DNA from: an uncultured Oscillospiraceae bacterium
GTDB taxonomy: Bacteria; Bacillota_A; Clostridia; Oscillospirales; Oscillospiraceae
Direction: 5' to 3'
DNA: 64,000 nucleotides
NCBI GenBank assembly: GCA_947631215.1
Contig: CANRKN010000001.1
Coordinates: forward strand, 1 to 64,000
The notes under the pieces were generated by a model. It was not told the origin of the DNA, did not search any database, and worked only from the letters and a program-made list of their open reading frames with translations. The position numbers were made by a program, and so were the translations under genes. Below, piece by piece: positions 16,081-51,889 of this stretch. Within the stretch, counting starts at the first letter, position 1, and every line of letters begins with the position of its first letter.

Positions 16081-16116
16081 TTCGTTTCATGAAGAGGAAA
16101 GGAGCGGGCGTTACAT

Positions 16117-34229: not shown

Positions 34230-34526
34230 TTGCAATGCAAAGTGGAGATCTGTGGCGTGAACACGGCCAGGCTGAAGGTACTGAAAAACGAGGAGACGAG
34301 GGCCCTGCTGGTGAGGGCCAAGGCGGGGGATATGGCCGCCCGGGAGGAACTCATATCCGGCAACCTGCGGCTGGTGCTGAGCGTGATACAGAAATTTGCT
34401 GGCCGGGGGGAGAACGTGGACGACCTCTTCCAGGTGGGCTGCATCGGCCTCATCAAGGCCATCGACAATTTTGACATCACCCAGGACGTGAAGTTTTCCA
34501 CCTACGGGGTGCCGCCCGATGGTTGA
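34230..34526 (+). CDS. sigG: SigG, N-terminal half, interrupted by the insertion
   Basis: The first 93 codons (34230-34508) encode the N-terminus of the forespore sigma factor SigG, ending at KFSTYG in region 2. After that the frame runs into the insertion (VPPDG) and stops. KVEICGV, EELISGNLRLVLSVIQ and DDLFQVGCIGLIKAIDNFD match B. subtilis SigG almost residue for residue. The start is TTG at 34230 behind GAGAGGGGATAG. The fragment lacks the promoter-binding regions 2.4 and 4, so it cannot work alone. Joined at GGTGCC to the half at 51389 it gives a 259-residue SigG. A GTGAATCAA...CAACACTATC stretch at about 34161-34194 is only loosely like a SigF/SigG promoter. Confidence 0.93.
   Translation: MQCKVEICGVNTARLKVLKNEETRALLVRAKAGDMAAREELISGNLRLVLSVIQKFAGRGENVDDLFQVGCIGLIKAIDNFDITQDVKFSTYGVPPDG
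34508..34513 (+). repeat. attL core GGTGCC
   Basis: A 6-base direct repeat at the left junction, in the Gly-Val-Pro codons of sigG (GGG GTG CC). The identical hexamer occurs at 51388-51393 in the same reading phase. Serine recombinases cross over at a central dinucleotide inside such a short core. Confidence 0.85.
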
Positions 34527-34567
34527 GGGTGAAAAAATACGGAGAAAAAGCCCTGAAACCCTTGGTA

Positions 34568-35986
34568 TCAGGCGCTTTTTTGCTGTCCGCCGCTCTCCTT
34601 GAAGGTGTAGAATATCTGCACTCTCTCGTTGGTGATGACGATCCGGCTCACGCAGTCCCGGATCATGGTCTGCTTCTGCAGGTCGGTCAGATAGGGCCAT
34701 GTCTCCGCGATGCCGGCCACCTGGTCCCGGATGAGGGCCAGCCGTCGGGCGCTGGCCTGGTCCTCTTTCTCCTGCTCATACTGAGCCTGGAGAGTGACCA
34801 GAGCCTGCTTGGTGTCCTCGATGACCTTGAGGAGCGTATCGTCCGTTCCCTCGGCGTACAGGGTATAGAGCCGCTCCAGTTTGTTCTCCGTCTGGCGGAT
34901 GCGGTTTTTCAGCTCTGCCACCGGGTCGATGACCGCCAGGGCGTCGGTTTCCTTGCCGGACCGCATATCGGCGGAGATGTTGAACAGGTCGCCCAGGACG
35001 GTGCTCTCGATCTGGTGGGACCAGACCGGCTCATAGGCGCAATCCGGGTCCCTGACCATGTGGGCCTTGGCTGGGTCGTGGGAGTAGCAGACCAGCTTGA
35101 AGCCCGCCTTGCCCCACTTCTGATACCGGAGCCGTCCGCCGCAGCAGCCGCAGTAGATGAGCCCGGTGAGCAGGTGGGAGGCCTTGACGGGGGCGTGGGC
35201 AACGGAGCGTTCATGCATCTTCCGCACGGCCAGATTATAGGTATCCTCGCTGAGGATAGCCTCGTGGCAGCCAGGAAACTCCTGGCCCTTGTAGGTCACC
35301 AAGCCCAGATAGCATCGGCGCCCCAGCACGTTCGACACCAGCCGCTCGTGCAGCAGCCCCAGGATACCGGCGATCTTTCTGGTGGAGTAGCCCTGGATGT
35401 AGAGATCGTATATCCTGCGGACGGTCTCCGCGTCCTGGTTGGGCACCAGGATGCCCTGCTGCTGGTCGTAGTCGTAGCCGAAGGGGACGTTGCCCCCGCC
35501 CCGCCAGAGGCCCTGCTTGACCCGCTCCAGCATCCCCATCCGGGTGCGGAGGTAGATGTTCTCACGCTCCAGCTGGGCGAAAACGGAGAGGATGCCGATC
35601 ATGGCCCGGCCGAAGGGCGTCGTGGTGTCGAAGTTTTCGTTGATGGACACGAAGCCCACCTCGTTGGGCAGGAACACGTCCTCAATGAGATAGAGGGTGT
35701 CCTTCTGGCTTCGGGACAGACGGTCCAGCTTGTAGACCGCCACGTTCTCCAGCCTGCCGGCCTGGGCGTCGGCGATGAGCCGCTGGATCTCCGGCCGGTT
35801 CAGATTGCTGCCGCTGTATCCGCCGTCCACATAGAGGTCGAACCGCTTCCAGCCCTTTACGGCGCAGTAGGCCTCCAGCTTCTCGGTCTGGGCGGGGATG
35901 CTGTAGCCCTCCTCCGCCTGGGCGTCGGTGGACACACGGATATACAGGGCGCAGATCTTTTCCTCGTTGGGGTTATTGCTGTTCAT
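34568..35986 (-). CDS. Large serine recombinase of the sigG element
   Basis: A 472-residue site-specific recombinase of the resolvase/integrase large serine family, close in length and layout to SpoIVCA/CisA. The catalytic Ser is residue 19 in ALYIRVSTDAQ. VYKLDRLSRSQKD supplies catalytic arginines, and NENFDTTTPFGRAMIGI and QLERENIYLRTRMGM belong to the catalytic domain. A recombinase domain begins at VPFGYDYD (about residue 165), followed by a zinc ribbon (YCGCCGGRLRY with two more Cys) and a Glu/Lys-rich coiled coil at about residues 365-410. It should integrate and, with a directionality factor, excise the element at GGTGCC. AAAGGAG precedes the start. Confidence 0.93.
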   Translation of the reverse strand: MNSNNPNEEKICALYIRVSTDAQAEEGYSIPAQTEKLEAYCAVKGWKRFDLYVDGGYSGSNLNRPEIQRLIADAQAGRLENVAVYKLDRLSRSQKDTLYLIEDVFLPNEVGFVSINENFDTTTPFGRAMIGILSVFAQLERENIYLRTRMGMLERVKQGLWRGGGNVPFGYDYDQQQGILVPNQDAETVRRIYDLYIQGYSTRKIAGILGLLHERLVSNVLGRRCYLGLVTYKGQEFPGCHEAILSEDTYNLAVRKMHERSVAHAPVKASHLLTGLIYCGCCGGRLRYQKWGKAGFKLVCYSHDPAKAHMVRDPDCAYEPVWSHQIESTVLGDLFNISADMRSGKETDALAVIDPVAELKNRIRQTENKLERLYTLYAEGTDDTLLKVIEDTKQALVTLQAQYEQEKEDQASARRLALIRDQVAGIAETWPYLTDLQKQTMIRDCVSRIVITNERVQIFYTFKESGGQQKSA

Positions 35987-36030
35987 AACACTCCTTTCCT
36001 CGATGATCGAACTCCACCAAGTTCATACCC

Positions 36031-36059
36031 AGTATAATTCCGGCAAATGCCAAATGCAA
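36031..36059 (-). promoter_or_regulatory. Vegetative-type promoter of the recombinase
   Basis: On the minus strand, -35 TTGCAT (36054-36059), 17 bases, -10 TATACT (36031-36036). It looks SigA-type rather than SigE, SigF or SigG-type, so recombinase supply may not be limited to sporulation. Confidence 0.65.
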
Positions 36060-36067
36060 ATGTGCAA

Positions 36068-36107
36068 AGCAGGTAAATGGTGGAGGGAAAGGAAGATTTA
36101 ACCTGCT
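36068..36107 (-). terminator. Hairpin between small ORF and recombinase
   Basis: Arms AGCAGGTAAAT and ATTTAACCTGCT (one bulged base). It overlaps the stop codon of the upstream small gene and separates it from the recombinase promoter. Confidence 0.45.
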
Positions 36108-36271
36108 ATGGGAGATGTTTCCTGCTGAGGCTCGTCTTTGGGCGGCTGCGGCTGGGCCTGGACCGCCCGGGACTGCACCTCGCGGATGAGTTGGATGACG
36201 CCCTCGTTGGCGACCTTCATGGGCGGGATCGCGCTGACGGGCTGTTCGTTTATGAATCTGATGACTTCCAT
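36098..36271 (-). CDS. Small protein upstream of the recombinase
   Basis: A 57-residue protein starting MEVIRFINEQPVSAIPP and ending in a Gln/Pro-rich tail (QAQPQPPKDEPQQE). GAGG lies 7 bases before the ATG at 36271. No family is recognised. Its place just upstream of the large serine recombinase makes it a candidate directionality factor, since such factors are small, poorly conserved and encoded nearby. That is inference from position only. Confidence 0.5.
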   Translation of the reverse strand: MEVIRFINEQPVSAIPPMKVANEGVIQLIREVQSRAVQAQPQPPKDEPQQETSPIAG

Positions 36272-36936
36272 GGCGGGCCTCACAAGCGGCAAAAATGGGG
36301 ACTGCTGGTGAAATCATAGCCACGGAAGGTGTTTTTTAGTAAGGGCGGCGTTTTCATGGTGCCGCGCCTCCTTCCTGGTCCCATGAAAGCCCAAAGCGGG
36401 CTTTCATGGGGGTTATAGGAACATTCACCGGACGGTCGGCGGCTTGCCGGCTCCACGGGCGTCTCACCCCCGCGTGGTTCTCACGCGGCCGCCCCCATTG
36501 CCTGAGACGGGTCTGGGCTTGCCAAGCGAAGAGGGCCGCCGACTGTGGCTGGACGGGAGTATCATTGTCCCCATTGCCTGTCATCGCCGCGCCGGGTGCC
36601 GTCCGGCGCTCTCAGCGGGCCGTCTGTCGCTCTCTGCCGATGGCTGGTCATGGCGCGGCCGCTGAAGTGGCTTATGCTCATCGCAATAACAATGGGAATG
36701 TGTCTGTTGAATGGGCTATTCGGTTGTCATGGCAGCCCCGCACGGTTCGCGCACCCGCCGGGGTTCTCTTTGGCATGAACTAATTGTAGCATGAGGAAAT
36801 AGCCTTGGGCGGTCAGGATTGGCAAGGTTTTTGGTTGGTTTTCCGACCAAAATGACTTATTTCATAAAACCATGCTGGTCGGTCGTCTGTCTCTCGCGCT
36901 AGCGATCGTGCTGTTTCTGGTAATAACCGTAGCGTG
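36272..36936. other. Gene-free stretch with a perfect palindrome
   Basis: About 660 bases without a supportable gene. It holds a perfect hairpin at 36381-36409 (CCATGAAAGCCC and GGGCTTTCATGG around AAAGC) and a GC-rich middle. A possible 42-residue hydrophobic ORF at 36650 has no ribosome-binding site. The composition shifts to AT-rich toward hsdR. Confidence 0.5.
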
Positions 36937-36964
36937 AAAAACTCGGCCCGCTTGGGCCGAGTTT
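36937..36964. terminator. Terminator after hsdR
   Basis: Perfect 12-bp stem AAAACTCGGCCC and GGGCCGAGTTTT with a GCTT loop; A and T runs on both sides make it work in either direction. It lies past the end of the minus-strand restriction operon. Confidence 0.85.
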
Positions 36965-37042
36965 TCTTAATTTCGGGTGAGATGAAGACAATTTGTCTTA
37001 ATTCTATAAACTATGGAAATAGACAATACACTTACCCATTGC

Positions 37043-40000
37043 TTAATTATTCTCTTCGAAATTTTCGACTTGCTCCATGACTTTGCGGAAAACCTCAGGG
37101 CTGTACTGGGGCGGGTAGCCATTTTTGATGAGGCAAACCTTAATGTCAAATTTCAGTTGATCCCGGATGATTTGATTGTTGAGCCAGTCTGCGAACGACG
37201 ATTTGGTGTCGATTATTTCCTTGATCTTTTTTGCCAGAGACTTGCATTTCTCGTTGACGGTGACACCGTTTACGACCTTGTCTTCGCCATATTCGAAGTT
37301 GTACTGATCTCGCAGCGCCATCAAAATGTCATAAAATGCCTTCTCCTCAAAGGTCAATCCGACTTTGCGGAAGCTTTCCCGGTCGGCCTGCATCTCTTTG
37401 AGAATCTGCAATGCCTGCTCTGTGGCGTTCTTTATGATCTCATCGGCGGTCTGCTCCTGTGCAACTCCGGCTTCTTCAGCGGTGAGGTGCTTGCGCCGCT
37501 CATGGTATTGTTTGATAGTGTCCTCAAGCATTTCCTGAAACTTCTTGGCCGCTATCTGATTAACTTTTCCGTATTCCCTGATCTGCTTGCGAAGCATCTT
37601 GACCAGCAGTTCCAATTTGGACGCAGGCATTTTCACATCGGACAGCTTTTCATAATACTCCGGGCTGAAAATGTCCTCCTGCTCACCATTTTCGAGAATG
37701 CTTTCTACCTCGTTATACTTTAATGCCTCTTCGACCATTTTTGCTACATTGCGATTCATGGTCTCGGTGTCAATTTCGCTGGTGCCGCTCATCTTGCGGA
37801 CGAACCCGGCAATTGCCATAAAGCACTGTGCGAGAGAAGATTCTTCCTCGCTCAGTTCCCCGGAGGGCTGGCAGATATCATAGGCGGCGCGCATTCTCTT
37901 GACGGTATTCAGAAAATATGTCTTGAAGGATACCTTCTGAACGCGTTTTCCATCTTCGCTTTCTTCATTCATCGCCTGCGCAGAGATGAATACATATTCC
38001 GCCGCCTTTGCCAGAAGCCTGTACCGTTCTGCCGGGTCACCGTTCGGGTCAAGAAACGGAGCTAAGTCGTACCCTGTAAAGAGGTCCTTCAAGATCTGCA
38101 GCTTTTCCCGGAACACATCGGTCGCAAGCTCAATATCGTCGGCGGTGGGGGCGATGGAATTGTCCCCGCCATATATTTTCAGAGCTTCGCGCATATTGTC
38201 GCGGATGCCGATGTAATCAACGATCAGGCCGTGGTCCTTTCCAGGATATTTTCGATTCACGCGGCTTATGGTCTGGATCAGCATATGCTTTTTCAGGGGC
38301 TTGTCGTTGTACATGTAGGTGAGGGAAGGAACGTCAAACCCGGTGATCCACATATCCACAACGATGGCTATGCAGAAATTGGACTTATCCTGTTTGAATG
38401 CGGCGGCGAGATCGCTGGAACGTTTATCGTTCTTCAAACCGCCGAGATAATTGTACATATCCGGGTTGTCGTTTTTGCCCACGCTTGCCACCAGGGCCAT
38501 AAACGGCATTGGGGTCAATTCCCGCAATTCTTCCTCTGCTGGCTTTACCCCGTCGGGGGCTTTCTTTTCTACGAACCACTCCGGATAGAGTGCTTGAAAC
38601 TTTTTCAGCAAATCAAAGGCGATCTTCCTGTTTGAGCAGACGACCATGGCTTTCTGGACCCTATCTGGATCGTTGGCGCAGGAGGAAACATAGTGGTCAT
38701 GGATGTCGACTGCAAGACGCTCCAGCCGGGACGGCTCTCCCAAAATGACCTCCATGGAGCTCATGGCCTTCTTGCTTGCCTCGATGTCCTCTTCTGTCGC
38801 GCCGTCATCCGCGCACTGTTTGTAATAATCCTCGATTTGTCTGACCTTTTCCTGATCCAGCAGCACTTTGGCTATGCGCGGGTGATACTTTATGCGCACG
38901 GTGATCCCGTCGGCAACGGCCTGATCCATCGTATATCGGTCGATCTCGTCGCCAAAGGTCTGGTATGTCTCGTCGATGGGTGTGCCAGTGAAGCCGACGA
39001 AGGTCGCATGAGGGAACGCCTCACGCAGAACTTTTGCGTATGGCTTGGACACCAGAGCTTGCATATTTTTGTCCGCGTCTTTGGTAAATTTGATCCTTCG
39101 TGCGTGGTCAAGCTGTGTCCTGTGAGCCTCGTCGGAGAAGCAGATAATGTCCGCCCGGTCGTTGATCAGACCGATCTTATCCTCTTTTCTGTCACAAAAC
39201 TTCTGGATCGTGCAGATATAAAAACCTCCTGTCCCTCTGGCTCGAAGCTCGGTCCTGAGGTGGTTGCGGTCCTTGACAACGCTGACTTCGCCCAGGCTCA
39301 AAAATTCTGTGCTCTTTGTGAAAAGCTTTGCCCCTTGTGTCTGGAGGTCATCCCGGTCGACGATCATGACAACGGTCGGCGAACCCATTCCCGGCACATC
39401 TTTGCACCGCAAGGCGAGCTGGCGAGCAAGAAATGCCATGGTATAGGTCTTGCCGCATCCGGTGGCACCGAAATATGTGCCGCCCTTGCCGCTCTTGGCA
39501 ATGACCGACTTCACGATGCTCTGCTTCAACAGCCGCACAGCAAAAAACTGCGGATACCGACACACGATCTCCCGTTTTTCTTGGTCATACTCGCTGTCCT
39601 GAAAATATATGTAATCCCGAAATATCTCCAGGAAACGGCTGGGGCTGTATACGCCCTTTATCATCGTTTGTACTTCGTCAAAGGGAAGGGAAGAGACCTT
39701 GTCTCCCTCGTTCACACGCCGCCATGCATAGAAGTGCTCATAGGGGGTGTGAACAGTTCCGAGGCGCGTTTTAACGCCGTCAGAAATACAGGCGAGGGGA
39801 CAGTATTGCAGCAGGTGGGGAATATCCCGCCAGTAGCGGCCGTTGATCTGCTCCCAGGCGGTATATATCGTGGCTTTGGGATCAGAGGGGTTCTTCAGTT
39901 CGATCACGCACAGAGGCATTCCGTTGACGAACAGGAGAATATCCGGCCGGCGGGTCTGCTTTTGTCCGTTGTTGGTGTACTCAACTGTGAACTGATTGAC

Positions 40001-40372
40001 GGCGCGGAAAAGATTATTTTCCGGGTGTTCAAAGTCGATCAGCGCGACCATCCTGGCCAGACCGCTCTGGGGCATGAACTGAAGTCCGTTGACCATCCAG
40101 CCGTAGACCTTGTGAAGCGTTGCGAAGGGGCTGTCCGCGCCGACGAGCCTGACCGTATCCATAATCTGGCGAATGTCCTCCGCCGTCAGGTCGGAATTGG
40201 TCTTGCACAGGAACTGCTCCATATCGTCCAAATACAGAACATCCCTTTGGGAACTGCGGGGGATACTGCCGCCGGGCAGGTACTGCCAGCCTTCCTCCTC
40301 CAGATAGGACAGGAAGGCATACTCGAATTCCCACTCGCAGTAGCGGCCATTGTAGTTCTGTAGTTTCGACAT
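37043..40372 (-). CDS. hsdR: Type I restriction enzyme, R subunit
   Basis: HsdR, 1109 residues, the translocating and cleaving subunit of a type I restriction enzyme. The N-terminal nuclease has a PD-ExK layout (RRPDILLFVNGMPLCVIELKNP, near residue 145-165). Walker A is GATGCGKTYTMAF near residue 305, and the DEAD-type motif is FSDEAHRTQ near residue 415. GFTGTPIDE, WITGFDVPSLTYMYNDKPL and TISRVNRKYPGKD are further helicase motifs. The C-terminal half is helical and should bind the methylase core. The gene is intact. It is last in the operon hsdM-hsdS-orf314-hsdR. Confidence 0.96.
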   Translation of the reverse strand: MSKLQNYNGRYCEWEFEYAFLSYLEEEGWQYLPGGSIPRSSQRDVLYLDDMEQFLCKTNSDLTAEDIRQIMDTVRLVGADSPFATLHKVYGWMVNGLQFMPQSGLARMVALIDFEHPENNLFRAVNQFTVEYTNNGQKQTRRPDILLFVNGMPLCVIELKNPSDPKATIYTAWEQINGRYWRDIPHLLQYCPLACISDGVKTRLGTVHTPYEHFYAWRRVNEGDKVSSLPFDEVQTMIKGVYSPSRFLEIFRDYIYFQDSEYDQEKREIVCRYPQFFAVRLLKQSIVKSVIAKSGKGGTYFGATGCGKTYTMAFLARQLALRCKDVPGMGSPTVVMIVDRDDLQTQGAKLFTKSTEFLSLGEVSVVKDRNHLRTELRARGTGGFYICTIQKFCDRKEDKIGLINDRADIICFSDEAHRTQLDHARRIKFTKDADKNMQALVSKPYAKVLREAFPHATFVGFTGTPIDETYQTFGDEIDRYTMDQAVADGITVRIKYHPRIAKVLLDQEKVRQIEDYYKQCADDGATEEDIEASKKAMSSMEVILGEPSRLERLAVDIHDHYVSSCANDPDRVQKAMVVCSNRKIAFDLLKKFQALYPEWFVEKKAPDGVKPAEEELRELTPMPFMALVASVGKNDNPDMYNYLGGLKNDKRSSDLAAAFKQDKSNFCIAIVVDMWITGFDVPSLTYMYNDKPLKKHMLIQTISRVNRKYPGKDHGLIVDYIGIRDNMREALKIYGGDNSIAPTADDIELATDVFREKLQILKDLFTGYDLAPFLDPNGDPAERYRLLAKAAEYVFISAQAMNEESEDGKRVQKVSFKTYFLNTVKRMRAAYDICQPSGELSEEESSLAQCFMAIAGFVRKMSGTSEIDTETMNRNVAKMVEEALKYNEVESILENGEQEDIFSPEYYEKLSDVKMPASKLELLVKMLRKQIREYGKVNQIAAKKFQEMLEDTIKQYHERRKHLTAEEAGVAQEQTADEIIKNATEQALQILKEMQADRESFRKVGLTFEEKAFYDILMALRDQYNFEYGEDKVVNGVTVNEKCKSLAKKIKEIIDTKSSFADWLNNQIIRDQLKFDIKVCLIKNGYPPQYSPEVFRKVMEQVENFEENN

Positions 40373-40400
40373 GGCTTTGATCCTCCGGCGTCACAAGAGA

Positions 40401-41345
40401 TCAAGAATTGTCATTAGTTGAGTTTTGTTTTAAGTAAAGGATTGCTGTGGCAATCAAGGAGAGACATCGATTAAAGAAATAGTCATAATGTCGAATATCT
40501 ACAATATCAATCTTATTGGTCTCGTGATGACGAATCCGAAAACTATTCCCGATAGTAGTTAATGCGCGGAATTCTGCATCAAACAAATCCATATATTCAG
40601 GTACGCCGCCGGACATATCATCAATAATCTGGGCTGCGGACCCCTTCTTGTCCAAATTTTGGTAATACGTTTTCAACCGTTCAAAAGCATCCCATATTTT
40701 TTCTACAGCATATTTTTGATCATCTGGATGTGGGGACGTATGTTTTTGGATAGCAGTTGTTAATAGTTCTTTAATACCATTTTCGTCGATTTTAGCTATA
40801 TTATCTGCAATTTTATCTGACAGGACAGAAACTTCCTCAATGCGCTCAACCTCCAGGTTTGCTGTTAAGTGATATAGCAATCCTGTCTTTTGAAAAATAT
40901 CGTTGATTTCTTCCACGAACGTTTGCGCAATGTTATTGGTGGAGCCAAAGATTAGGTGATTATGCCGAAAGAAGCTGTGATAATTCCTCGACTTTATATC
41001 CCGGACGTTTTGCGCGACAAACTCAATCAAATCAAAGAGCGCATATTGGTCGTACTTATCGCTTGTTTCCTCATGCCCAAATACGTTATGTGTAGACCGT
41101 GGTTTAGCAATGCTACCGGAACGTCTGAACAGCGCGGGAATTTCAAATTGCATATTTTCATTGAATTTCTCATAGTCCATGCCACAGCAGCCACACCCAT
41201 CTGGACATTCTTCAGGATACTTCCAAGCCAGGTATTCAAAATACTCTGAGCAACAGTCATACAGGAGCGAATATGTTGTTATAGTTATCACATCGGTTTT
41301 TTCTATTGGCGTACGCATCCCGTGCCGTTCAGTATATAAACTCAT
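40401..41345 (-). CDS. Unknown protein inside the type I RM operon
   Basis: A 314-residue AT-rich gene between hsdS and hsdR. It overlaps the hsdS end by 17 bases, and GGAGGAA sits 8 bases before its ATG, so it is coupled to hsdS. A Cys cluster near residue 46 (CPDGCGCCGMD) may bind zinc. The C-terminal helical half includes IGNSFRIRHHETNKIDI followed by a hydrophobic helix ending in ILYL. I recall similar Arg/His segments in abortive-infection-type proteins but cannot assign a family. It may be an accessory anti-phage or regulatory subunit. Confidence 0.8.
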   Translation of the reverse strand: MSLYTERHGMRTPIEKTDVITITTYSLLYDCCSEYFEYLAWKYPEECPDGCGCCGMDYEKFNENMQFEIPALFRRSGSIAKPRSTHNVFGHEETSDKYDQYALFDLIEFVAQNVRDIKSRNYHSFFRHNHLIFGSTNNIAQTFVEEINDIFQKTGLLYHLTANLEVERIEEVSVLSDKIADNIAKIDENGIKELLTTAIQKHTSPHPDDQKYAVEKIWDAFERLKTYYQNLDKKGSAAQIIDDMSGGVPEYMDLFDAEFRALTTIGNSFRIRHHETNKIDIVDIRHYDYFFNRCLSLIATAILYLKQNSTNDNS

Positions 41346-44292: not shown

Positions 44293-44322
44293 GAATTACA
44301 AGACAGGGAAGGAGGGAGAACG

Positions 44323-44625
44323 ATGGCTCAGGCCCCTCAGATCGCCGACATACAGAGAACTGTGGCAGATTTGGGAAAACAGTATGGTGCCGAACGGATA
44401 TTTCTTTTCGGCTCGTTTGCCCGCGGAGATGCTGCGGCTGACAGCGATATAGACCTTCGGATCGACAAGGGTAAGATACGCGGCCTGTTTGCCCTGTCCG
44501 GCCTCCACCTTGCCCTGGAGGAGCGTTTGGGCAGAAAGGTGGATCTTCTCACCTCTGACAGCCTGGACGCAGAATTCCTTGCCAACATCCGCCCGGAGGA
44601 GGTGTTGCTCTATGACCATGAGTGA
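44323..44625 (+). CDS. mntA: MntA-type nucleotidyltransferase antitoxin
   Basis: A 100-residue minimal nucleotidyltransferase. The motif GSFARGDAAADSDIDL (GSx10DxD) near residue 30 is complete, and a later acidic residue lies in KVDLLTSDS. In MntA-HepT systems this enzyme adds AMP groups to the HepT toxin and silences it. The ATG at 44323 is set by GGAAGGAGGG. The stop overlaps the start of hepT, so the pair is translationally coupled. Confidence 0.93.
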   Translation: MAQAPQIADIQRTVADLGKQYGAERIFLFGSFARGDAAADSDIDLRIDKGKIRGLFALSGLHLALEERLGRKVDLLTSDSLDAEFLANIRPEEVLLYDHE

Positions 44626-44959
44626 GCGCGACAGATCGATCCTCCGGCATATCATCTCCTACTGCGAGGACATAGAAAAGGCAAACGAGCGGTTTGGGAA
44701 CAGCCTTGAGGCATTCAAGGCCGACAAGGACTATCGAAACAGCTGTGCGATGTGCATCCTGCAGATAGGGGAGCTGGGCGGCCATCTGAGCCCGGAATTC
44801 CGGTCGGCGCACAGGGAAATGCCGTGGAATGAAATACGCGGGATGCGCAATGTGATGGCCCACGCTTATGGCAGCATCAGCGTGCAGACTACGTGGGAGA
44901 CGATCGAGCAGGACATTCCTCTTCTCAGGGAGTTCTGCGACCGGGTTCTGGCAGAGTAG
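44618..44959 (+). CDS. hepT: HepT-type HEPN ribonuclease toxin
   Basis: A 113-residue HEPN toxin. The RNase and AMPylation motif Rx4HxY is present as RNVMAHAYG near residue 80, so both the catalytic Arg/His and the target Tyr are intact. It begins MSERDRSILRHI at 44618, overlapping mntA; an ATG two codons earlier is also possible. Its end overlaps the convergent mobC gene by 35 bases, an unusual tail-to-tail arrangement. Confidence 0.93.
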   Translation: MSERDRSILRHIISYCEDIEKANERFGNSLEAFKADKDYRNSCAMCILQIGELGGHLSPEFRSAHREMPWNEIRGMRNVMAHAYGSISVQTTWETIEQDIPLLREFCDRVLAE

Positions 44960-45302
44960 CAGGGACGTCATCCTCGCTCATTCTCTTAGGCAGGATCGTG
45001 GCTTTGGTGATAGCCCTGACCGCCTCCTCGAATTGACGGACGCCGGCGTCATACCGTTGCACGTCTATCACATTCAGCACATGGGCTTTCTGCGCTATTT
45101 GGTTGAGGGTATTGCCGATGCGGTATAGCGGCTTCATCATGGCGTAGTAATCCGGCGGAGGAGCGTCCCGGGGGATATAGCCCCTGATGAGCTGACGGAT
45201 ATAGGCCGCCCTTGTAAGGCGGCTCCGCTGTGCTTTCCTGTCCAGGATCGCCAGTTCCTTTTCGCTTACCCAGACTTGGAGCCGGATGTTTCGTGTTCTC
45301 AT
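44925..45302 (-). CDS. mobC: MobC-like relaxosome accessory protein
   Basis: A 125-residue MobC family protein. The N-terminal ribbon-helix-helix (NIRLQVWVSEKELAILDRKA) is followed by the family signature SRLTRAAYIRQLIRG and a helical tail with IGNTLNQIAQKAHV. MobC helps open the oriT region for a relaxase. No relaxase gene is present in the element, so this is a mobilisation remnant or relies on a helper. The start at 45302 lies directly beside the oriT-like hairpins. Confidence 0.88.
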   Translation of the reverse strand: MRTRNIRLQVWVSEKELAILDRKAQRSRLTRAAYIRQLIRGYIPRDAPPPDYYAMMKPLYRIGNTLNQIAQKAHVLNVIDVQRYDAGVRQFEEAVRAITKATILPKRMSEDDVPATLPEPGRRTP

Positions 45303-45338
45303 AAAAGTGCTCCTTTTTTCAGTAGGTGAGTGGGGGTC

Positions 45339-45384
45339 ACAGGGGCTCGCCCCTGTAAAAATGTGTTTGTGGGAGTACAAACAC
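45339..45384. other. oriT-like region upstream of mobC
   Basis: Two perfect inverted repeats, ACAGGGGC/GCCCCTGT (45339-45356) and GTGTTTGT/ACAAACAC (45363-45384), 36 bases upstream of mobC. Paired hairpins flanking a nick site next to mobC are typical of transfer origins. The same structure is kept in the second copy at 63552-63598. No nick consensus is claimed. Confidence 0.6.
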
Positions 45385-45462
45385 GATGCTTGTTGGTATA
45401 TTGCATTTGACCGCACGGCTTGACAGCCCTGCGAGGGATCACTGCCTGAAAGAGAAACACAA

Positions 45463-45494
45463 AAAAGCAGCCTGCGTTCAAGCAAGCTGCTTTT
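45463..45494 (-). terminator. Terminator of the HTH-HipA gene
   Basis: AAAAGCAGC and GCTGCTTTT enclosing a smaller GC/GC stem, just past the 3' end of the minus-strand gene. The minus-strand T tract makes it a standard terminator. It is kept in the second copy at about 63672-63705. Confidence 0.75.
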
Positions 45495-45510
45495 CGTGTT
45501 TTTCCCTGAT

Positions 45511-46884
45511 TTATTTCCCTCTGGTGGGGATCGCCAGAAGCTGCCGGACGCGAAGCTCCAACAGCCGCTCCAGCGCCCGCAAATGCTCCTCTGGCAGGTT
45601 GATGCTGGGATGGCGATGGAAGGTGAAACCGATCATCCGGCGAAGCTGCTGCTTCTGCTTCGCCCCCATCACGGCGGCGCATACCTCCTCGTAGGACAGT
45701 CGGTAGGGGTTCATCCTGGTCCCGGCGTATTCCTTCAGCTTCTCAAAATCCTCAAGTTCCTCCCGTCCCGCGTAGCACAGCAGGGACAGGCCGTTGTCGA
45801 AGATGGGAGCGGGAGCAATGATCCTGCCGGTGTGATTATCCCGCAGGACGCCGAAGTTCCCGAGGTGCCGGTCCTCGTTGTAGATGAGCGCGTCAAAGAC
45901 CAGCATACTCCGGAGCTGCTCTCCAAACGCCGGGCCGAGGGCGTCAAAGTATTCCAGGCACCCCTGGATGCCACCGGACTTCACCAGGCTGCCGATGGGG
46001 ATATACGAGGTGTCCACATCGGTGAACAGCGCGCACTTGGAGGCGGTGATGCCCTTCCAGTTCTCCAGGTCATAATGGACTGCGTTCAGCCGCATGGTCT
46101 GGGCGATCTGGGAGGCATAGTATTCGCAGTAGGGCTCCCGCCCGGCGTTGTGGGCGCCGCTGGAGCCGCCTTTGTAGAGGTAGATGCCGTCGTTTTCGAT
46201 GAAACGCCATGCCTTGGGCAGCATACCGTTGGTGGTGAGCTCCGGGGAGGTTGTGAACGCCTCCCGGCTCTGGCCCGCGCCGGTATAGGCCACCAGCGCC
46301 AGCATCTCCGAAAAGCGGTTCTCATAGAGGTTGTAGTCGGCAAACTTCCCCTCAAAGCCGTCCGGCACGATCCAATAGCTGTCGTTGAGGGACAGCCCCT
46401 TGCACACGTCGATGATGCCTTTCGTGTCGTTCTGGCTCAGCCCCAGCGTCTTCAGTATCTCGTCCACGAAGGCACGATTCTTGGGGATCACGCGCCGGCC
46501 CAGCCACTTGACGACGCCCTCGCCGGTGCAGGCCATGTCCAGCGGGAGCAGATGGCGGGCGTCCTCGTTGACGGACAAGACCTCTGCCACCAGCCCCTCC
46601 AGACCGCGCTTTTCCAGGGTGAATTTCATGAGTTCCGTATCATAAATGCGGAGGCTGTAAACGCTTGATGCCATTTCTTCTTGCTCCTCCAAGGACAGCG
46701 ATACCGTCTTGCCCAGGGCGGCGGCGATCTTCAGGACCATATCCAGAGTCAGGTTCTGCCCGCCGCTCTCCAGCCGGCAGATGCTGGACCGCTGGGTGCC
46801 GATCATCCGGGCCAGCTCCGCCTGCGATATGCCCTTTTCCAGCCGCGCTGCCACAAGCTGCGCGATGATATCCTGTCTGCGCAT
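45511..46884 (-). CDS. HTH-HipA fusion: one-gene kinase toxin-antitoxin
   Basis: A 457-residue protein that joins an XRE helix-turn-helix (residues 6-67, with GISQAELARMIGTQRSSICRLE) to a HipA-type serine/threonine kinase. The kinase catalytic loop NEDRHLGNFG lies at about 336-345, and the metal-binding APIFDNGLSLL follows. In classic hipBA the HTH antitoxin (HipB) and kinase (HipA) are separate proteins, so here repressor and toxin are one chain. A near-palindrome upstream (46917-46936) is a likely self-repression site. A second copy starts at the window's right edge. Confidence 0.88.
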   Translation of the reverse strand: MRRQDIIAQLVAARLEKGISQAELARMIGTQRSSICRLESGGQNLTLDMVLKIAAALGKTVSLSLEEQEEMASSVYSLRIYDTELMKFTLEKRGLEGLVAEVLSVNEDARHLLPLDMACTGEGVVKWLGRRVIPKNRAFVDEILKTLGLSQNDTKGIIDVCKGLSLNDSYWIVPDGFEGKFADYNLYENRFSEMLALVAYTGAGQSREAFTTSPELTTNGMLPKAWRFIENDGIYLYKGGSSGAHNAGREPYCEYYASQIAQTMRLNAVHYDLENWKGITASKCALFTDVDTSYIPIGSLVKSGGIQGCLEYFDALGPAFGEQLRSMLVFDALIYNEDRHLGNFGVLRDNHTGRIIAPAPIFDNGLSLLCYAGREELEDFEKLKEYAGTRMNPYRLSYEEVCAAVMGAKQKQQLRRMIGFTFHRHPSINLPEEHLRALERLLELRVRQLLAIPTRGK

Positions 46885-46916
46885 GGTGCTCCCTCATATC
46901 TCTGGTCTGATCGATA

Positions 46917-46936
46917 TGTTACCATATATGATAACA
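46917..46936. promoter_or_regulatory. Candidate operator of the HTH-HipA gene
   Basis: TGTTACCATATATGATAACA, a 20-base palindrome with one mismatched pair, 33 bases before the HTH-HipA start. Its HTH domain is the natural candidate to bind it. Confidence 0.55.
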
Positions 46937-46991
46937 CTTTGCAAGGGGAACTGTGCAACTTTATGGGCTTTTGTGTTTCCTGCGGCCATAT

Positions 46992-47031
46992 GCAAAGCCG
47001 GGAGCGGGTTTGAGCCCGTTCCCGGCTTTGC
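46992..47031 (-). terminator. Strong terminator after tnpV
   Basis: A 17-bp stem, GCAAAGCCGGGAGCGGG and CCCGTTCCCGGCTTTGC, with one mismatch, ending 4 bases from the tnpV stop. Confidence 0.75.
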
Positions 47032-47034
47032 GGT

Positions 47035-47388
47035 TCAGACGTAGATGAGTTCGTTCAAAACAATTTCCTCGGCGGCGCTGCGAATGTTGTTCATGAGTCC
47101 TACCCAGCGCATCTGGTCTGTCGCTTTCAGTTCCTCCGTGACGCCTTGTGAGCTGGCCATCTCAGCGGTGAGCCGCTCCATCCTGGCGCGGGCCTCCTGT
47201 TCCACCTGCAGCAGGTGCGGATTCAGACCGCCGGATGTCAACAGATTGGTGAATGTCCCTGGCCGGTAGTGCATGAGAAACCTCCGGCGCAGCAGGGCGT
47301 ATTTTCCCAGGTGGATCTCCGGCTCTTGGTGGGGGAGAAGGTTGGGGATGCGATAGCCGTTCACCATGGTGTAGCCGATCTCGTTCAT
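47035..47388 (-). CDS. tnpV: TnpV family transposon-encoded protein
   Basis: A 117-residue TnpV-type protein, as carried by Tn4451-like clostridial mobilisable transposons. Family features are NGYRIPNLLPHQEPEIHLGKYALLRRRFL near the start, YNSLL-like TFTNLLTSGGLNPHLLQVEQEA, and the ending EELKATDQMRWVGLMNNIRSAAEEIVLNELIYV. The start at 47388 is chosen because AAGGAGG lies 8 bases upstream; a second ATG at 47394 would be only 2 bases from it. The role is unknown. It marks the ancestry of the element as a Tn4451-like mobilisable transposon. Confidence 0.9.
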   Translation of the reverse strand: MNEIGYTMVNGYRIPNLLPHQEPEIHLGKYALLRRRFLMHYRPGTFTNLLTSGGLNPHLLQVEQEARARMERLTAEMASSQGVTEELKATDQMRWVGLMNNIRSAAEEIVLNELIYV

Positions 47389-47591
47389 GTTCATGTCCTC
47401 CTTTTGCTCCATTGTAGGGCGTATGGAGAATAACTGCAAATGTGCGAATCACCGGAAGTTTTCTTTTTTCGGGTAGTACAGGCAGTAAACAGGGGTGGGG
47501 TGTGGGGAGGGGGAACGCGGCGGCAAAACTGTCACGGGCCAATGGGTATGGTGCGCCCTTGTGAGTAGGGCATTCTCTTTTTCAATTTTGC

Positions 47592-48518
47592 CTATCTTTC
47601 CTGCCCCCGCTGTAAACTGCGGTAGTATTCCAGGGCTTTGACGATGGTGTCCTCTATCACTTCATTGGGGGTATCCGGCTTGAAATAGCTGGCTACACGG
47701 GATTTGGAGAAGCTCAAATACTTGTTCTTCTCCCCTCTTTCTTCCCGTATGATGGAGAGAATGACCTCCGGGGACAGGCGGCCCTCCTGGGAGAATTTAC
47801 GCATCTTTACGGCATGGACATTGGATGGAGTGCGGTTCTCGCTCACCATGGTCTCATAGAGCGATGCCTGTTCCCGCTGGGTGAGATAGGACAATTCCAC
47901 GGCGGGCCGCATGGCGATCTTGCCGTCGTCCACCAGCTTCAGCAGCTCCGGGATGAGGCTGGTCAGGCGGATATAGCGGTGTATTTGCCGGGCACTGTCC
48001 TCCTCGCTTTTGCTCAGTTTTGCAACGCTGGTCAACTTCTCGCCCACTGGGGCACAAATTAAATCGGTCCGTTTGCCCTGCCGTTTCATGGCGTCCAGCT
48101 TCATTTTGTAGGCAAACGCCTTTTCGCTGGGCAGTATCTTCTCCCGCTGAAGATTGCTGTCCACCATAACGATGGTCGCTTCCTCGTCGGTCAGGTCACG
48201 GACGATACATGGGAGCGCCTCCGCGCCTGTAAGCTCCGCGGCGGCCATGCGCCGGTGGCCGGCTACCATCTGATAGCCGTCGCCCAGGGGCCGTACCAGC
48301 GCGGGAACGAGTATGCCGCGCTCCCGGATGCTGTCCGCGAGGGCCGCCAGGTCCCCGTCTGCCTTTACCTTGAACGGGTGGCCGGGGAAGGGGCTGATTT
48401 GTTCCAGCGGGATCTCGAGGATGGGTTCCAGCTTAGCTTCGTCCCGCTCGGCCTGGGTGGTGAACAGGTCGTCCAGCGAGGTCAGCAGGGATGCTGCACT
48501 GGGTCTTGCTTTTGACAT
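47592..48518 (-). CDS. parB: ParB/Spo0J-family partition protein (orphan)
   Basis: A 308-residue ParB-family protein. The N-terminal CTP-binding domain contains GILVPALVRPLGDGYQMVAGHRR (GHRR box near residue 93) and DSNLQREKILPSEKA near residue 122. The HTH region around VAKLSKSEEDSARQIHRYIRLT and LVDDGKIAMRPAVELSYL covers about residues 165-215. There is no parA in the element. Such orphans occur on integrative elements and may stabilise an excised circle or act in regulation. AGGAGG precedes the ATG. Confidence 0.9.
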   Translation of the reverse strand: MSKARPSAASLLTSLDDLFTTQAERDEAKLEPILEIPLEQISPFPGHPFKVKADGDLAALADSIRERGILVPALVRPLGDGYQMVAGHRRMAAAELTGAEALPCIVRDLTDEEATIVMVDSNLQREKILPSEKAFAYKMKLDAMKRQGKRTDLICAPVGEKLTSVAKLSKSEEDSARQIHRYIRLTSLIPELLKLVDDGKIAMRPAVELSYLTQREQASLYETMVSENRTPSNVHAVKMRKFSQEGRLSPEVILSIIREERGEKNKYLSFSKSRVASYFKPDTPNEVIEDTIVKALEYYRSLQRGQER

Positions 48519-48606
48519 CGTTTATTCCTCCTAGATATAAATTTAGCCGCCCACGAAAATGTGGACGGCTATTGAGACAATAGATATTCTGTTGCTTTTA
48601 TTATAG

Positions 48607-49341
48607 CTACGTAGAACTGCCTGTAGAAACTTTCACGAGAGGATACTCTTTGTAATACTCCCCATCTAGCATGCTCCCCGCTTGATTGTGGTGAAAACCA
48701 CCCCATTGCTTAAAAAAGAAAGCGGTATTATTCGCTCTGGCTAAATCACGTAATTCAACGACCCACTGCTTTTCTAGAGGCCTACAACCTGCTCCGGATT
48801 CTCCGCCGACTATAAGCCAGTCGATACCATTTAAGTCTATTTCACCAATAGACTCCAACAACGGCTCTGCAGAAATGAATTTTACTTTTGCGTCACTCAG
48901 TTTAAGACTTTCACACCGACTTAGGGTAGCCTTATTTTCAATTGATACACCCATCCAAATGTTATCTGACCAATTGATCCTAGGAGAAAGAGAAACTAAT
49001 CTATCAGCGCGCTTTGTCAAAATTTGAAAAGTATGCCAATGCGCTTTGTTCATTGTGTCAAACAGTGAGAGAATGTCCTCGTCTGATACACGTTCATGGA
49101 ACAAGTCTGACATTGAGTTGACAAAGATCATTCGGGGCTTTTTCCATTCAAGAGGACGTAAGAACAAGTCTTTATGAACAGTCACATCGAATCCATTTTT
49201 ATAACGTTTGTTCCCCATTGCTTTAAGTCTACGAGCTAGTGTTGCCGCATAGCAATGCTCACAGCCAGACGAACACTTTGTGCATCCTGTGATAGGATTC
49301 CACGTTGACTCTGTCCATTCAATTTTTGATGATATAGACAT
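48607..49341 (-). CDS. Phage Gp37/Gp68 family three-Cys-motif protein
   Basis: A 244-residue member of the phage Gp37/Gp68 (DUF5131) family. The cysteine cluster GCTKCSSGCEHCYA near residue 20 (C, C, C, C spaced 2, 3, 2) resembles a radical SAM-type or metal site. FHERVSDEDI, FQILTKRADRL, WMGVSIEN and LIVGGESGAGCRP are family-conserved segments. Its biochemical role is unknown. It starts 12 bases after the tcmP stop, forming a two-gene unit that is found in mobile elements across bacteria. The pair is distinctly AT-rich. Confidence 0.9.
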   Translation of the reverse strand: MSISSKIEWTESTWNPITGCTKCSSGCEHCYAATLARRLKAMGNKRYKNGFDVTVHKDLFLRPLEWKKPRMIFVNSMSDLFHERVSDEDILSLFDTMNKAHWHTFQILTKRADRLVSLSPRINWSDNIWMGVSIENKATLSRCESLKLSDAKVKFISAEPLLESIGEIDLNGIDWLIVGGESGAGCRPLEKQWVVELRDLARANNTAFFFKQWGGFHHNQAGSMLDGEYYKEYPLVKVSTGSST

Positions 49342-49353
49342 ATGCTCTCCTAA

Positions 49354-50478
49354 TCAAATAAACTCAATTACTGCGCCATCAGGCATGGTCAACTTGCCAC
49401 TTCTATATTTACACTTACGACCAGAGAGTACACGTATTTTATCTTCTTCCTCTAGCATTCGCAGTGCGTCTTTCACATTTTTGCCAATATAATGGCTGGA
49501 GAAATCGCAATCTTCTTTATCACAAAGAGCTTTAACCGTCATTCGCTTGCCCCAATTAGACTTAAGGAGTCTCTCTTTCAACTCCTGTATTGGCCCTGTA
49601 AAAAGAGATAATTGATCAAACTCTGAATCAAAGTTTCTACTATCTTCAAAAGAAAACGTCGCTACCCCATCTGAATCCTTCGCGCTATTTGTATACATTA
49701 TTTGTTTCATGATGCTGCATGCAACAGGGTGCTTGGTGACAAAGACAATGAAATGGCTCGTTCTTAATTGCTCTTTTCCATAAAATTTGAAAGGAAGAAC
49801 GTAATTACTCGTGTTCCTTGTCAAGGACTTAATTAATGCATTCAGAACAGCTGGTTCTCTTTTTTCAGGAGGCAAATCTGCCAGATGTTCTTTTAGTGTT
49901 GCAACTTGGTTCTCTCCAAATATATTATTGAGGTGTTCATCAAATTTGGTGTTGCTACTAAGGGCCATATTTATGCGATTATAATTGAAAAAGAAAACAC
50001 AGTCTGATCCACTATTTCTAATCAACAAATCGATTAAATCAATGGTCAAACCTTTATATCCAAATGGGTCAACAAACGACAGAATAGGCATATTATCTGG
50101 AATCTGTATTTTGTCATGGAAGCCACTATCAACAGTTTCAGAATAGAACTTTATTCTATCTGCAAGTAATGACTTCTCATCGATACTTGCTATTTCTTTA
50201 CGCAAGGACATAATGTTGTTTTCATCGTTATCGTTAAAGAGGAACTGCATTTTATCAATGAGCCCCGAGTCGTTTAATGTGCTTTGAATAATCTGCACAG
50301 GTGCCGATGGGCTGTTATCGCCATATCTACCAGGCCCACAAAACAAGTCTACATATCCCATTGGGACATTCCATTTTTTGATAACACGAGCCCAAGCAAC
50401 AAAGTAATCGGATACTATTTTCGCTTTGACTGCCGATTGCTCGGTCTGATCTTTAAAGAATTCTGTGGTAGCTGCCAA
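49354..50478 (-). CDS. tcmP: Three-Cys-motif partner protein TcmP
   Basis: A 374-residue TcmP-family protein, defined by being encoded next to the three-Cys-motif Gp37/Gp68 protein, as here. The N-terminal half resembles a methyltransferase fold (YVDLFCGPGRYG near residue 43, then FLFNDND and LSFVDPFGYKG near residue 132). The C-terminal half carries a winged-helix-like segment (NWGKRMTVKALCDKEDCDF). It starts at TTG 50478 behind GGGGGA. The pair's function is undetermined; nucleic-acid modification or phage defence is a reasonable guess from fold and context. Confidence 0.9.
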   Translation of the reverse strand: MAATTEFFKDQTEQSAVKAKIVSDYFVAWARVIKKWNVPMGYVDLFCGPGRYGDNSPSAPVQIIQSTLNDSGLIDKMQFLFNDNDENNIMSLRKEIASIDEKSLLADRIKFYSETVDSGFHDKIQIPDNMPILSFVDPFGYKGLTIDLIDLLIRNSGSDCVFFFNYNRINMALSSNTKFDEHLNNIFGENQVATLKEHLADLPPEKREPAVLNALIKSLTRNTSNYVLPFKFYGKEQLRTSHFIVFVTKHPVACSIMKQIMYTNSAKDSDGVATFSFEDSRNFDSEFDQLSLFTGPIQELKERLLKSNWGKRMTVKALCDKEDCDFSSHYIGKNVKDALRMLEEEDKIRVLSGRKCKYRSGKLTMPDGAVIEFI

Positions 50479-50548
50479 TGTGAGTGTCCCCCAATCGCGA
50501 TTGCGCAGTGCATATGTTCAGAGGTTGCCCCGTCCTATTTCTAAGAAC

Positions 50549-50577
50549 ATTATATATCAAACTGAATTGTGATGCAA
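50549..50577 (-). promoter_or_regulatory. Promoter of the tcmP-Gp37/Gp68 unit
   Basis: On the minus strand, -35 TTGCAT (50572-50577), 17 bases, -10 TATAAT (50549-50554). A strong stand-alone promoter, so this pair is independent of the genes to its right. Confidence 0.75.
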
Positions 50578-50610
50578 TCTCTTCCCCCTAATAATGAGGT
50601 TATGAAACTC

Positions 50611-50643
50611 AAAGCGACGGAGCATGATCTGCTCCGCCGCTTT
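50611..50643 (-). terminator. Terminator of the right-end gene
   Basis: AAAGCGACGGAGCA and TGCTCCGCCGCTTT with one mismatch and a TGATC loop, 18 bases past the stop of the minus-strand gene at 50662. Confidence 0.65.
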
Positions 50644-50661
50644 GGCCTGTGTTCGGTCCCT

Positions 50662-51267
50662 CTACCGTATCTGATACACCTGCTGGTCATGCAATGGGCC
50701 GCAGATGAGCTGGATGCTGGATTCTACCGTGAAGCTGCGTTCGCGGCTTTTGGGCACATCCAGTTCCTTCTCACACATATGTATCAGCTCGCTCCAGAGG
50801 CGGCAGCCCAGCATCTTGGCGGTGTGTTGCCAGGCGGGATAGCGTGGGTCCCGCTTGCGGTTATACTCCAGGCAGGAATGAGGGTGGATGCGGTTATACT
50901 CGCTGACGAACACGGCCCGGTATTCCTCCGGCGTGTGGTCCTCGGCGCGGTATTTGTACCACAGCTGGTCCTTGCTGGGGTAGTTCTCCCGGAGCCACTG
51001 AGCCGCCTTCATGTCAAATTCCAGCTCCACGCACCGATGACTGGGAAGCTCGGGGAGGGCGTCCAGTTCTTTGGTCGTTGGCGGTCTGCCGTGGTCCGCG
51101 ATGAAGCTTTCCACAGCCGCGCAGATGGAGCGGTCGTCCCACTTCTTGCCGGGGTAGTCTGACAGCAGATCATCGAGTACATCTTTTGCCTGGTGGAGGC
51201 TGTCGCTGAGACCCTCGACGGTATCCAGATAGTGGACGATCAGTCGAAATGCCTTTGCAGTCGTCAT
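50662..51267 (-). CDS. Unknown protein at the right end of the element
   Basis: A 201-residue protein taken from MTTAKAFRLIVHYL at 51267; the open frame extends up to 51366 with no better ribosome-binding site. It contains HGRPPTTKELDALPELPSHRCVE, which recalls the GRPPT...LPSH pattern of HNH-associated repeats in homing-type proteins, followed by a Trp/Tyr-rich C-terminal half with HMCEKELDVPKSRE. No catalytic motif is clear. It is the gene closest to the right junction (121 bases). Confidence 0.65.
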   Translation of the reverse strand: MTTAKAFRLIVHYLDTVEGLSDSLHQAKDVLDDLLSDYPGKKWDDRSICAAVESFIADHGRPPTTKELDALPELPSHRCVELEFDMKAAQWLRENYPSKDQLWYKYRAEDHTPEEYRAVFVSEYNRIHPHSCLEYNRKRDPRYPAWQHTAKMLGCRLWSELIHMCEKELDVPKSRERSFTVESSIQLICGPLHDQQVYQIR

Positions 51268-51387
51268 GTTTTTTGTCGCCGCCTTTCTTTTTTGTCTACG
51301 ACACGTCATCGTTCGACGGTAATCTACAGGGGAGAGAAAACCCGCAAACCCTTGGAAATAGGGCATTCCATTTCCACTTTAGATAAC

Positions 51388-51393
51388 GGTGCC
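51388..51393 (+). repeat. attR core GGTGCC
   Basis: Matches the hexamer at 34508-34513, in the same SigG codon phase. It is preceded by element sequence (ATAAC) and followed by CATGATATCCGG of sigG. Confidence 0.85.
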
Positions 51394-51889
51394 CATGATA
51401 TCCGGGGAGATACGGCGGTATCTCCGGGACAACAGCGCTGTGCGGGTGAGCCGGTCCCTGCGGGACACGGCCTACCGGGCCATGCAGGCCAAGGAGGCCT
51501 TTTTGACGGAGCACCAGCGGGAGCCCTCGGTGGAGGACATCGCGAAGATGCTGGGGCTGGAGCCGGGAGAGGTGGTCATGGCCATGGACGCCATCTCGGA
51601 CCCGGTGAGCCTCTTCGAGCCGGTATACAACGACGGCGGGGAGAGCGTGGCGGTCATGGACCAGATCGGCGACAGCCGCAACACGGACGCGGCGTGGCTG
51701 GAGCGCATCGCCCTCACGGAGGCGGTGGACAAGCTGGCGGAGCGGGAAAAGCGTATATTGTCCATGCGTTTTTTCGACGGCCGGACTCAGATGGAGGTGG
51801 CCGCGGCCATCGGCATCAGCCAGGCCCAGGTGTCCCGCCTTGAGAAAAACGCCGTGGGCCAAATCAAAAAGGCGTTGTTCCCGGCGTAG
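51389..51889 (+). CDS. sigG: SigG, C-terminal half, interrupted by the insertion
   Basis: 166 codons that continue SigG from the exact residue where the first half ends: VPMISGEIRRYLRDNSAVRVSRSLRDTAYRA (regions 2.3-3), DPVSLFEPVYNDGG, and region 4 with the helix-turn-helix TQMEVAAAIGISQAQVSRLEK. Length and motifs match B. subtilis SigG to the end (KKALFPA). A GTG at 51389 could nominally start translation, but no ribosome-binding site or promoter precedes it, so this half is probably silent until excision joins it to 34230-34508. Confidence 0.94.
   Translation: MPMISGEIRRYLRDNSAVRVSRSLRDTAYRAMQAKEAFLTEHQREPSVEDIAKMLGLEPGEVVMAMDAISDPVSLFEPVYNDGGESVAVMDQIGDSRNTDAAWLERIALTEAVDKLAEREKRILSMRFFDGRTQMEVAAAIGISQAQVSRLEKNAVGQIKKALFPA

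Follow-up and report, generated by a model that had tools for sequence, protein, structure and literature searches.

How can a bacterium make the forespore sigma factor σG when the gene for it lies in two pieces? This question is raised by a stretch of 64,000 nucleotides (positions 1 to 64,000 of contig CANRKN010000001.1, hereafter the window) from an uncultured Oscillospiraceae bacterium. In the window, the sigG gene is cut at one exact base by an element of 16,880 bp. The window is part of a widespread, repeated phenomenon: split sigG was found in 54 genomes besides the window, with both halves found in 39 of them, and additionally at locus L012. In 42 rows (40 genomes, L012 and the window) the junction was inspected at the level of single bases, and the other 14 genomes were judged from model coordinates. 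We consider it probable that the element is precisely excised during sporulation by its own recombinase with the help of a directionality factor that the element also encodes (likely a protein of 201 residues), and that this would rejoin the gene for a 259-residue σG. Genomes, loci and public proteins are referred to by G, L and P numbers.

The sigG gene is interrupted at one exact base

The halves of the gene were located with the SigG family model NCBIfam TIGR02850. In a SigG tree, the SigG of the window nests in the genus of G002. The split gene and the ends of the element are as follows.

34162-34196, + strand: promoter-like stretch of sigG (TGAATCA ... GGCAACACTAT), conserved across 10 split rows, the window among them, and 7 intact members of the genus
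34230-34508, + strand: sigG N-terminal half, codons 1-93, matching TIGR02850 positions 2-90 and Pfam Sigma70_r2 positions 1-52 of 71, with the ribosome-site motif GAGG upstream
34508-34513, + strand: left core GGTGCC (attL), with the predicted crossover dinucleotide CC at 34512-34513; the right arm of an attP-like inverted repeat runs to about 34537
34508-51387, unstranded: whole element, 16,880 bp, delimited by the GGTGCC spacing and by the empty site in relatives
51388-51393, + strand: right core GGTGCC (attR), with the left arm of the attP-like repeat from about 51368
51389-51889, + strand: sigG C-terminal half, matching TIGR02850 positions 92-253, with no ribosome-site motif before the first ATG

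The promoter-like stretch resembles a σF-type promoter. An earlier note on this DNA had described the two halves, their shared GGTGCC and the 16,880-bp spacing, and both the TIGR02850 matches and the coordinates agree with it. Joining the gene in silico from GGTGCC to GGTGCC gave, in frame and without a stop, the 259-residue SigG that the note had expected. The recombinase gene that it had placed 55 bases from the left junction does lie there, with its stop at 34568. Uninterrupted alleles, which it had proposed to look for in related genomes, were found in G232 and G310. These intact relatives align across the site without a gap and represent the exact empty site, with 0 bases gained or lost and with both flanks at 92.6-95.6% nucleotide identity.

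Since the same break occurs in 41 further locus sets and two intact relatives align exactly, the break is neither chance nor assembly error. The note had named a wrong join in the assembly as a danger to its reading. That a mobile element was misassembled into sigG has a practically negligible probability: the relatives are metagenome bins, which speaks for such an error, but the recurrence of the same base, the attP-like arms and the exact empty sites all speak against it. The window presents a sporulation coding sequence that is interrupted, a short core common to both ends through which removal restores the frame, and a site-specific recombinase encoded by the element itself, as in a sporulation gene-intervening element. 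The note's interpretation is partly supported: the split, the recombinase, the exact empty site and the strong constraint on both halves in relatives speak for an element that must be removed to make SigG.

A large serine recombinase and its attachment sites

The gene next to the left junction and its upstream site are the following.

34568-35986, - strand: large serine recombinase of 472 residues with the catalytic motif YIRVST; Pfam Resolvase, Recombinase and Zn_ribbon_recom; PHROG integrase match at 6e-114; best solved-structure match, TP901-1 integrase domain
36031-36060, - strand: sigma-70 type promoter-like site before the recombinase (TTTGCA-18-TATACT), 1 found versus 0.1 expected, conserved in three siblings

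The protein has a resolvase domain with the catalytic serine, a recombinase domain and a zinc ribbon, as expected of a large serine recombinase. The residues RVST were present in 17 of 19 recombinase frames (picked from 27 rows with a recombinase match), and the other two frames start at a contig end. At the junctions, all 33 N sides carry the core GTnCC and all 39 C sides carry CC, the window included. When the element-side arms were rebuilt from both junctions, they formed inverted repeats centred on this CC. In 30 rows, pairing between the two arms of one genome reached 15.2 of 24 positions, versus 10.8 across clades (756 pairings) and 6.0 at random. The observed pairing was reached in 0 of 20,000 permutations, and in 0 of 5,000 with one row per clade. 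Pairing was similar in rows whose halves lie on different contigs (17 positions in G009, 16 in G012 and 20 in G020; 12 in G189).

The same base is used repeatedly

A recombinase scan of GTDB genomes yielded 18 loci, and at 13 of them a sigG half lay near the recombinase: the N-half in L001-L007 and L017, and the C-half in L008, L011, L012, L014 and L015. Among the 17 genomes that were reached through recombinase relatives and searched whole, 16 had a split SigG without an intact gene, some with one half only found. The sole intact one, G017, had been reached by a partial match of 44%.

Within one family, 300 genomes were sampled and at least 21 of them carry the split, namely G002, G014, G254 and 18 of 24 followed up; these 24 were picked by best E-value, and genomes with an N-half only could be missed. 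Not counted as split among the 24 were G018, G147, G152, G284 and G293, with truncated or overlapping pieces, and G155, which is frameshift-like. The recombinase type of the window (E <= 1e-85) occurred in 15 of the 300 genomes, all 15 of them split (hypergeometric P 7e-21, with 21 split). It was also present in 10 of 391 genomes of a class-wide sample; one of these is G002, and the other nine are all split and have no intact copy.

A second recombinase type is found at the same base in G021, G139 (partial), G190, G206 and G322, the last of which belongs to the genus of G002. It is about 31-36% identical to members of the first type and 33% identical to the recombinase of the window. The SigG tree, built from 30 split and 47 intact rows, requires at least 15 state changes, 7 of them forced by well-supported branches (quick method). 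These results show that the same base of sigG has been used repeatedly, by at least two recombinase types.

Evidence bearing on continued use of the split gene

Whether the halves still serve a function was judged best in a clade of four species (G020, G189, G239 and G279) that share the split with the same gene order on both sides. In these genomes birA neighbours the N-half, and ylmC and pyruvate carboxylase neighbour the C-half, which the recombinase immediately precedes (genes named by eye). With dS above 1.1 or beyond estimation, the N halves are 93-98% and the C halves 90-95% identical. The dN/dS is 0.01-0.04 for the halves, where estimable, and 0.04-0.06 for the recombinase. In the genus of G189, 11 genomes were searched, and all 10 with SigG data show split halves. 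The join was in frame without an early stop in 30 of 30 rows with both halves aligned, the window included. A match to SpoIVB, a σG-dependent sporulation protein, was found in 26 of 27 split genomes (G004 being the exception) and in 8 of 8 intact ones, with 29 of the 35 above the curated cut-off.

These data bear on the possibility that the element is a plain genomic parasite for which sigG is a landing site, with carriers that lose sporulation and an excision that is rare and random. Presence of the split is indeed patchy in the genus of G002, where 13 of 35 genomes are split (one or both halves found), 17 intact and 1 partial, and 4 lack a SigG call. The ends of the element reassort between species and its cargo, which looks like defence genes, varies between siblings, as is typical of a mobile island; a gut life without spores is possible as well. 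A parasite of this kind is nevertheless quite unlikely, because both halves are open and constrained, because the split in the genus of G189 is old, present in all members with data and under the low dN/dS given above in the four compared, and because split genomes keep the SpoIVB match. The old, constrained split in this other genus has already weakened it.

Split two-piece sigma factors exist, and the halves could be made as separate polypeptides that together form one. The halves are conserved though they lie on different contigs in several genomes, with core genes around them where looked at. A Shine-Dalgarno-like motif, however, precedes the first ATG in 1 of 39 C-halves versus 31 of 33 N-halves, the cut falls inside Pfam region 2, and the att arms are kept, which together make a two-piece factor very improbable. 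Since the C-halves are without ribosome sites, their separate translation is unlikely and rejoining of the DNA is the likely route to σG.

A candidate recombination directionality factor

At the other end of the element lies a gene that may turn the recombinase toward excision.

50662-51267, - strand: candidate recombination directionality factor of 201 residues, at the element end opposite the recombinase; the start at 51267 was chosen from sibling conservation

This protein is 29% identical (E 1e-18) to the products of genes at the sigG junctions of elements of the second recombinase type, and recombinase and candidate factor sit at opposite element ends wherever both were placed. The window-type element has the candidate factor at the C-half end. 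In G190, G021, G322, G013, G254 and G128 (a divergent partial match in G128) it lies behind the sigG N-half in the same orientation, and in G322 it is in frame with the N-half. A profile search gave 211 relatives, and a sigma region-2 domain was seen in 22 of the 120 listed. All eight of these that were read begin with the SigG N-half, pass through the break and run on into the candidate factor. The public proteins P0174, P0123, P0129 and others are such fusions of a SigG N-half to the candidate factor, P0174 being named a sigma-70 factor by its source.

In the family sample, 9 of 300 genomes had a candidate-factor match. Seven of them are split (in G139 the match is a fragment on another contig), and the other two, G285 and G303, are intact in sigG, with weak partial matches (6-7e-9) that were left out of the family. 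The G189-type and G039-type genomes of this sample yielded no homologue, and neither did the flanks of the G012 group. The structure model of the candidate factor is helical and tentative, its pTM being somewhat below one half. Several of its non-significant structure matches are sigma factors, from which no conclusion was drawn. From its place and its conservation, the 201-residue protein is likely the directionality factor.

A working model for excision

In C. difficile, a constitutive recombinase and a stage-specific directionality factor restore the gene that is interrupted by skin (PMC5025042). By analogy, a constitutive recombinase may keep sigG split and the candidate factor may rejoin it. 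The recombinase alone would integrate the element in growing cells and so split sigG, and the directionality factor would reverse the integration when sporulation starts. The vegetative-type promoter-like site of the window recombinase parallels the constitutive expression of the skin recombinase. In the six other genomes listed above, the factor lies behind the N-half in the same orientation, so that sigG would be rejoined by a factor expressed from its own forespore promoter; in that position the factor would be made only where and when sigG should be on.

Excision might also be non-developmental, such that a small subpopulation of growing cells loses the element and only these cells finish spores, a form of bet-hedging by reversible integration. 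The vegetative-type site before the recombinase favours this, and so does the window's candidate factor, before which no promoter was recognised. Against it, the factor in the six other genomes is placed for reading from the sigG promoter, which argues for developmental timing there. We regard bet-hedging as unlikely, though a serious alternative to excision during sporulation.

Several observations weigh against programmed excision by the recombinase and the candidate factor. The arms of the window pair at 11 of 24 positions only (ungapped register), no better than the cross-clade mean, and those of its siblings at 11-14. A search with the attP pattern, that is, the junction of the excised circle, gave 0 matches in viral contigs. 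Of the 15 recombinase-positive genomes in the family sample, 12 yielded no homologue of the candidate factor; the factor had no solved-structure match in PDB at E <= 0.001, and the lack of a recognisable promoter before it in the window counts here too. Additional copies of the gene also occur: G001, one of the 16 split genomes searched whole, holds an extra SigG C-terminal fragment off the contig end (C93, L038) that could be a second copy, and G339 (L217) and G340 (L218) carry a divergent intact sigG besides the halves. The copies in G339 and G340 may be contamination or a paralogue; taking all three genomes together, the extra copies would be contamination, strain mixture or a second sigG.

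Constraint is likewise less telling near the window. In the genus of G002, dN/dS is near equal in split and intact rows (N-half, 0.092 from 45 pairs versus 0.094 from 120; C-half, 0.177 versus 0.161), values that include time before the insertion; of 13 split rows, the window included and G322 left out, 10 were usable for the N-half and 10 for the C-half. The element of the window is young, with intact relatives at 93-95% identity, so that constraint on its halves since insertion is not measurable. Some split lineages have long SigG branches (1.05 in G274, 0.51 in G013, 0.42 in G007 and 0.41 in G205), which may reflect decay. The split SigG of G274 (L196, L195) stands on a very long branch and possibly belongs to a decaying system, though its recombinase frame is open.

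The germ-line problem

Because σG works in the forespore, a chromosome rejoined there would pass into the spore. Loss of the element would follow, unless the circle were kept and reintegrated after germination, or unless the change were an inversion that loses nothing. Persistence and reintegration of the circle would fit the ParB-like gene of the element. Inversion instead of deletion is suggested by the layout of G287, in which the N-half has the opposite orientation and flipping the DNA between the cores restores the full SigG frame.

In other genomes the sigG halves are on different contigs, and in G189 they would be at least 300 kb apart if on one chromosome. On the inner side of the halves lie sigF and the gene for ribonuclease HII in G189, and sigF in G007. 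A giant excisable element between such far-apart halves was considered and is unlikely, given these genes on the inner side. In G009, G010, G012 and G015 the recombinase stands alone beside comEC, apart from both halves, in a neighbourhood conserved between G012 and G015. These stand-alone recombinases (L010, 9992-11386; L013, 9995-11359; L016, 9998-11362; and the start of L009) look domesticated. In L238/L239 and L242/L243 the recombinase is apart from both halves too, in contexts common to pairs of relatives (by eye, a transporter gene and thrS).

As a tentative proposal, somewhat less likely than not, these Clostridia may keep sigG in pieces as a programmed germ-line rearrangement, in which the forespore sigG promoter reads out the rejoining factor and the integrase splits the gene again after germination. 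Some lineages would have a fully domesticated switch, with the recombinase stand-alone beside comEC, the halves at two further loci and a chromosome-scale inversion in which no DNA is lost.

To complete a spore, cells with a split sigG likely have to put their own DNA back together, probably in the very cell that turns into the spore. According to PMC3789829, C. difficile and other Clostridia lack the anti-sigma-G factor CsfB, and a gene kept in pieces could be another way of keeping σG off until the right time. Prediction of spore formation from metagenome bins could call sigG missing where it is merely split.

Content of the element

Between the recombinase and the candidate factor, the element carries the following genes.

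37043-40372, - strand: type I restriction enzyme subunit (HsdR), cargo
40401-41345, - strand: AbiJ_NTD4 / PADLOC PDC-S32 candidate defence protein, cargo
41329-42441, - strand: type I specificity subunit (HsdS), cargo
42428-44035, - strand: type I methyltransferase (HsdM), cargo
44311-44625, + strand: MntA-like nucleotidyltransferase (PADLOC PDC-S09; NCBIfam MntA below cut-off), cargo
44925-45485, - strand: NikA-like mobilisation protein, in a block common to sibling elements
45511-46884, - strand: helix-turn-helix (HTH) protein with a weak HipA_C match below cut-off, shared block
47035-47439, - strand: TnpV family protein, shared block
47592-48518, - strand: ParB-like protein, shared block
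48607-49341, - strand: DUF5131 protein, PADLOC candidate, cargo
49354-50478, - strand: PADLOC PDC-M30A protein adjoining the DUF5131 gene, cargo

Three blocks are common to the sibling elements (element bases 1-2258, 9604-14064 and 16104-16880), and comprise the recombinase end, the genes for the NikA-like, HTH/HipA_C, TnpV and ParB-like proteins, and the right end. The slots between them vary and hold the type I restriction-modification genes, the AbiJ-like and MntA-like cargo and the DUF5131 pair. The types of element ends reassort between species, as expected of a moving island. Comparison of 10 element reading frames with PHROGs found 0 phage structural proteins, HsdR, HsdS, HsdM and the MntA-like protein lying outside that scan. 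As for mobilisation genes, the NikA-like accessory protein is present, and no relaxase was found among the element proteins scanned with Pfam, which covered the small frames only in part.

Other intervals between sigG halves differ in content. G128 (L135) has an apparent type I-C CRISPR-Cas operon followed by repeats at 6330-13499, and an interval of 6.4 kb contains an iron alcohol dehydrogenase in G039 (L133) and also an aldehyde ferredoxin oxidoreductase, which are not typical mobile cargo (all by eye; L133 of G039, L130 of G198).

Comparison with known systems

SCC elements are defence-carrying islands moved by large serine recombinases. The window element is like them in having a serine recombinase at one end and restriction-modification and defence-like cargo that varies between siblings; it is unlike them in its landing site inside sigG, and matches to the Ccr models score far under the curated cut-offs. 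The gin element, which splits gerE in Bacillus cereus ATCC10987 (PMC5595907), is likewise a non-phage island that carries restriction-modification genes and serine recombinases and splits a sporulation gene. The target of gin, however, is a mother-cell regulator, and gin has three serine recombinase genes. Sporulation genes are also split by the SP-beta prophage in spsM, vfbin in spoVFB, vrin in spoVR and yin in yabG (PMC4191935, PMC10747680). Excision from spsM takes place in the mother cell, spoVFB and spoVR are mother-cell genes (PMC4191935), and in C. difficile mother-cell regulators govern the production of YabG (PMC10681294).

The earlier note had called the element skin-like. This holds for its mode of action: as with skin in sigK of Bacillus subtilis and Clostridioides difficile, an element carrying a large serine recombinase interrupts, in frame, the gene for a sporulation sigma factor. 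It does not hold for content, since no phage structural protein was among the 10 proteins scanned, nor for target and cell type, since the gene is sigG and not sigK and excision of skin is confined to the mother cell, whereas C. difficile transcribes sigG in the forespore only (PMC3789829). A search of the open-access literature found no title or abstract opening on an interrupted sigG among the matches listed; most subscription papers and preprints fall outside it, so that this is no proof of novelty.

In the cases compared here, a gene-splitting element is removed only in the mother cell, which dies; PMC4191935 names this confinement as the reason that the genome of the spore retains the element. 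A split sigG would instead put the change in the cell that becomes the spore, so that a step of differentiation would alter the germ line, and the alteration would have to be reversed or outlived. The element of the window would act as the known sporulation gene-intervening elements do, though on a gene of the forespore, and with features beyond those that the literature compared here describes for them.

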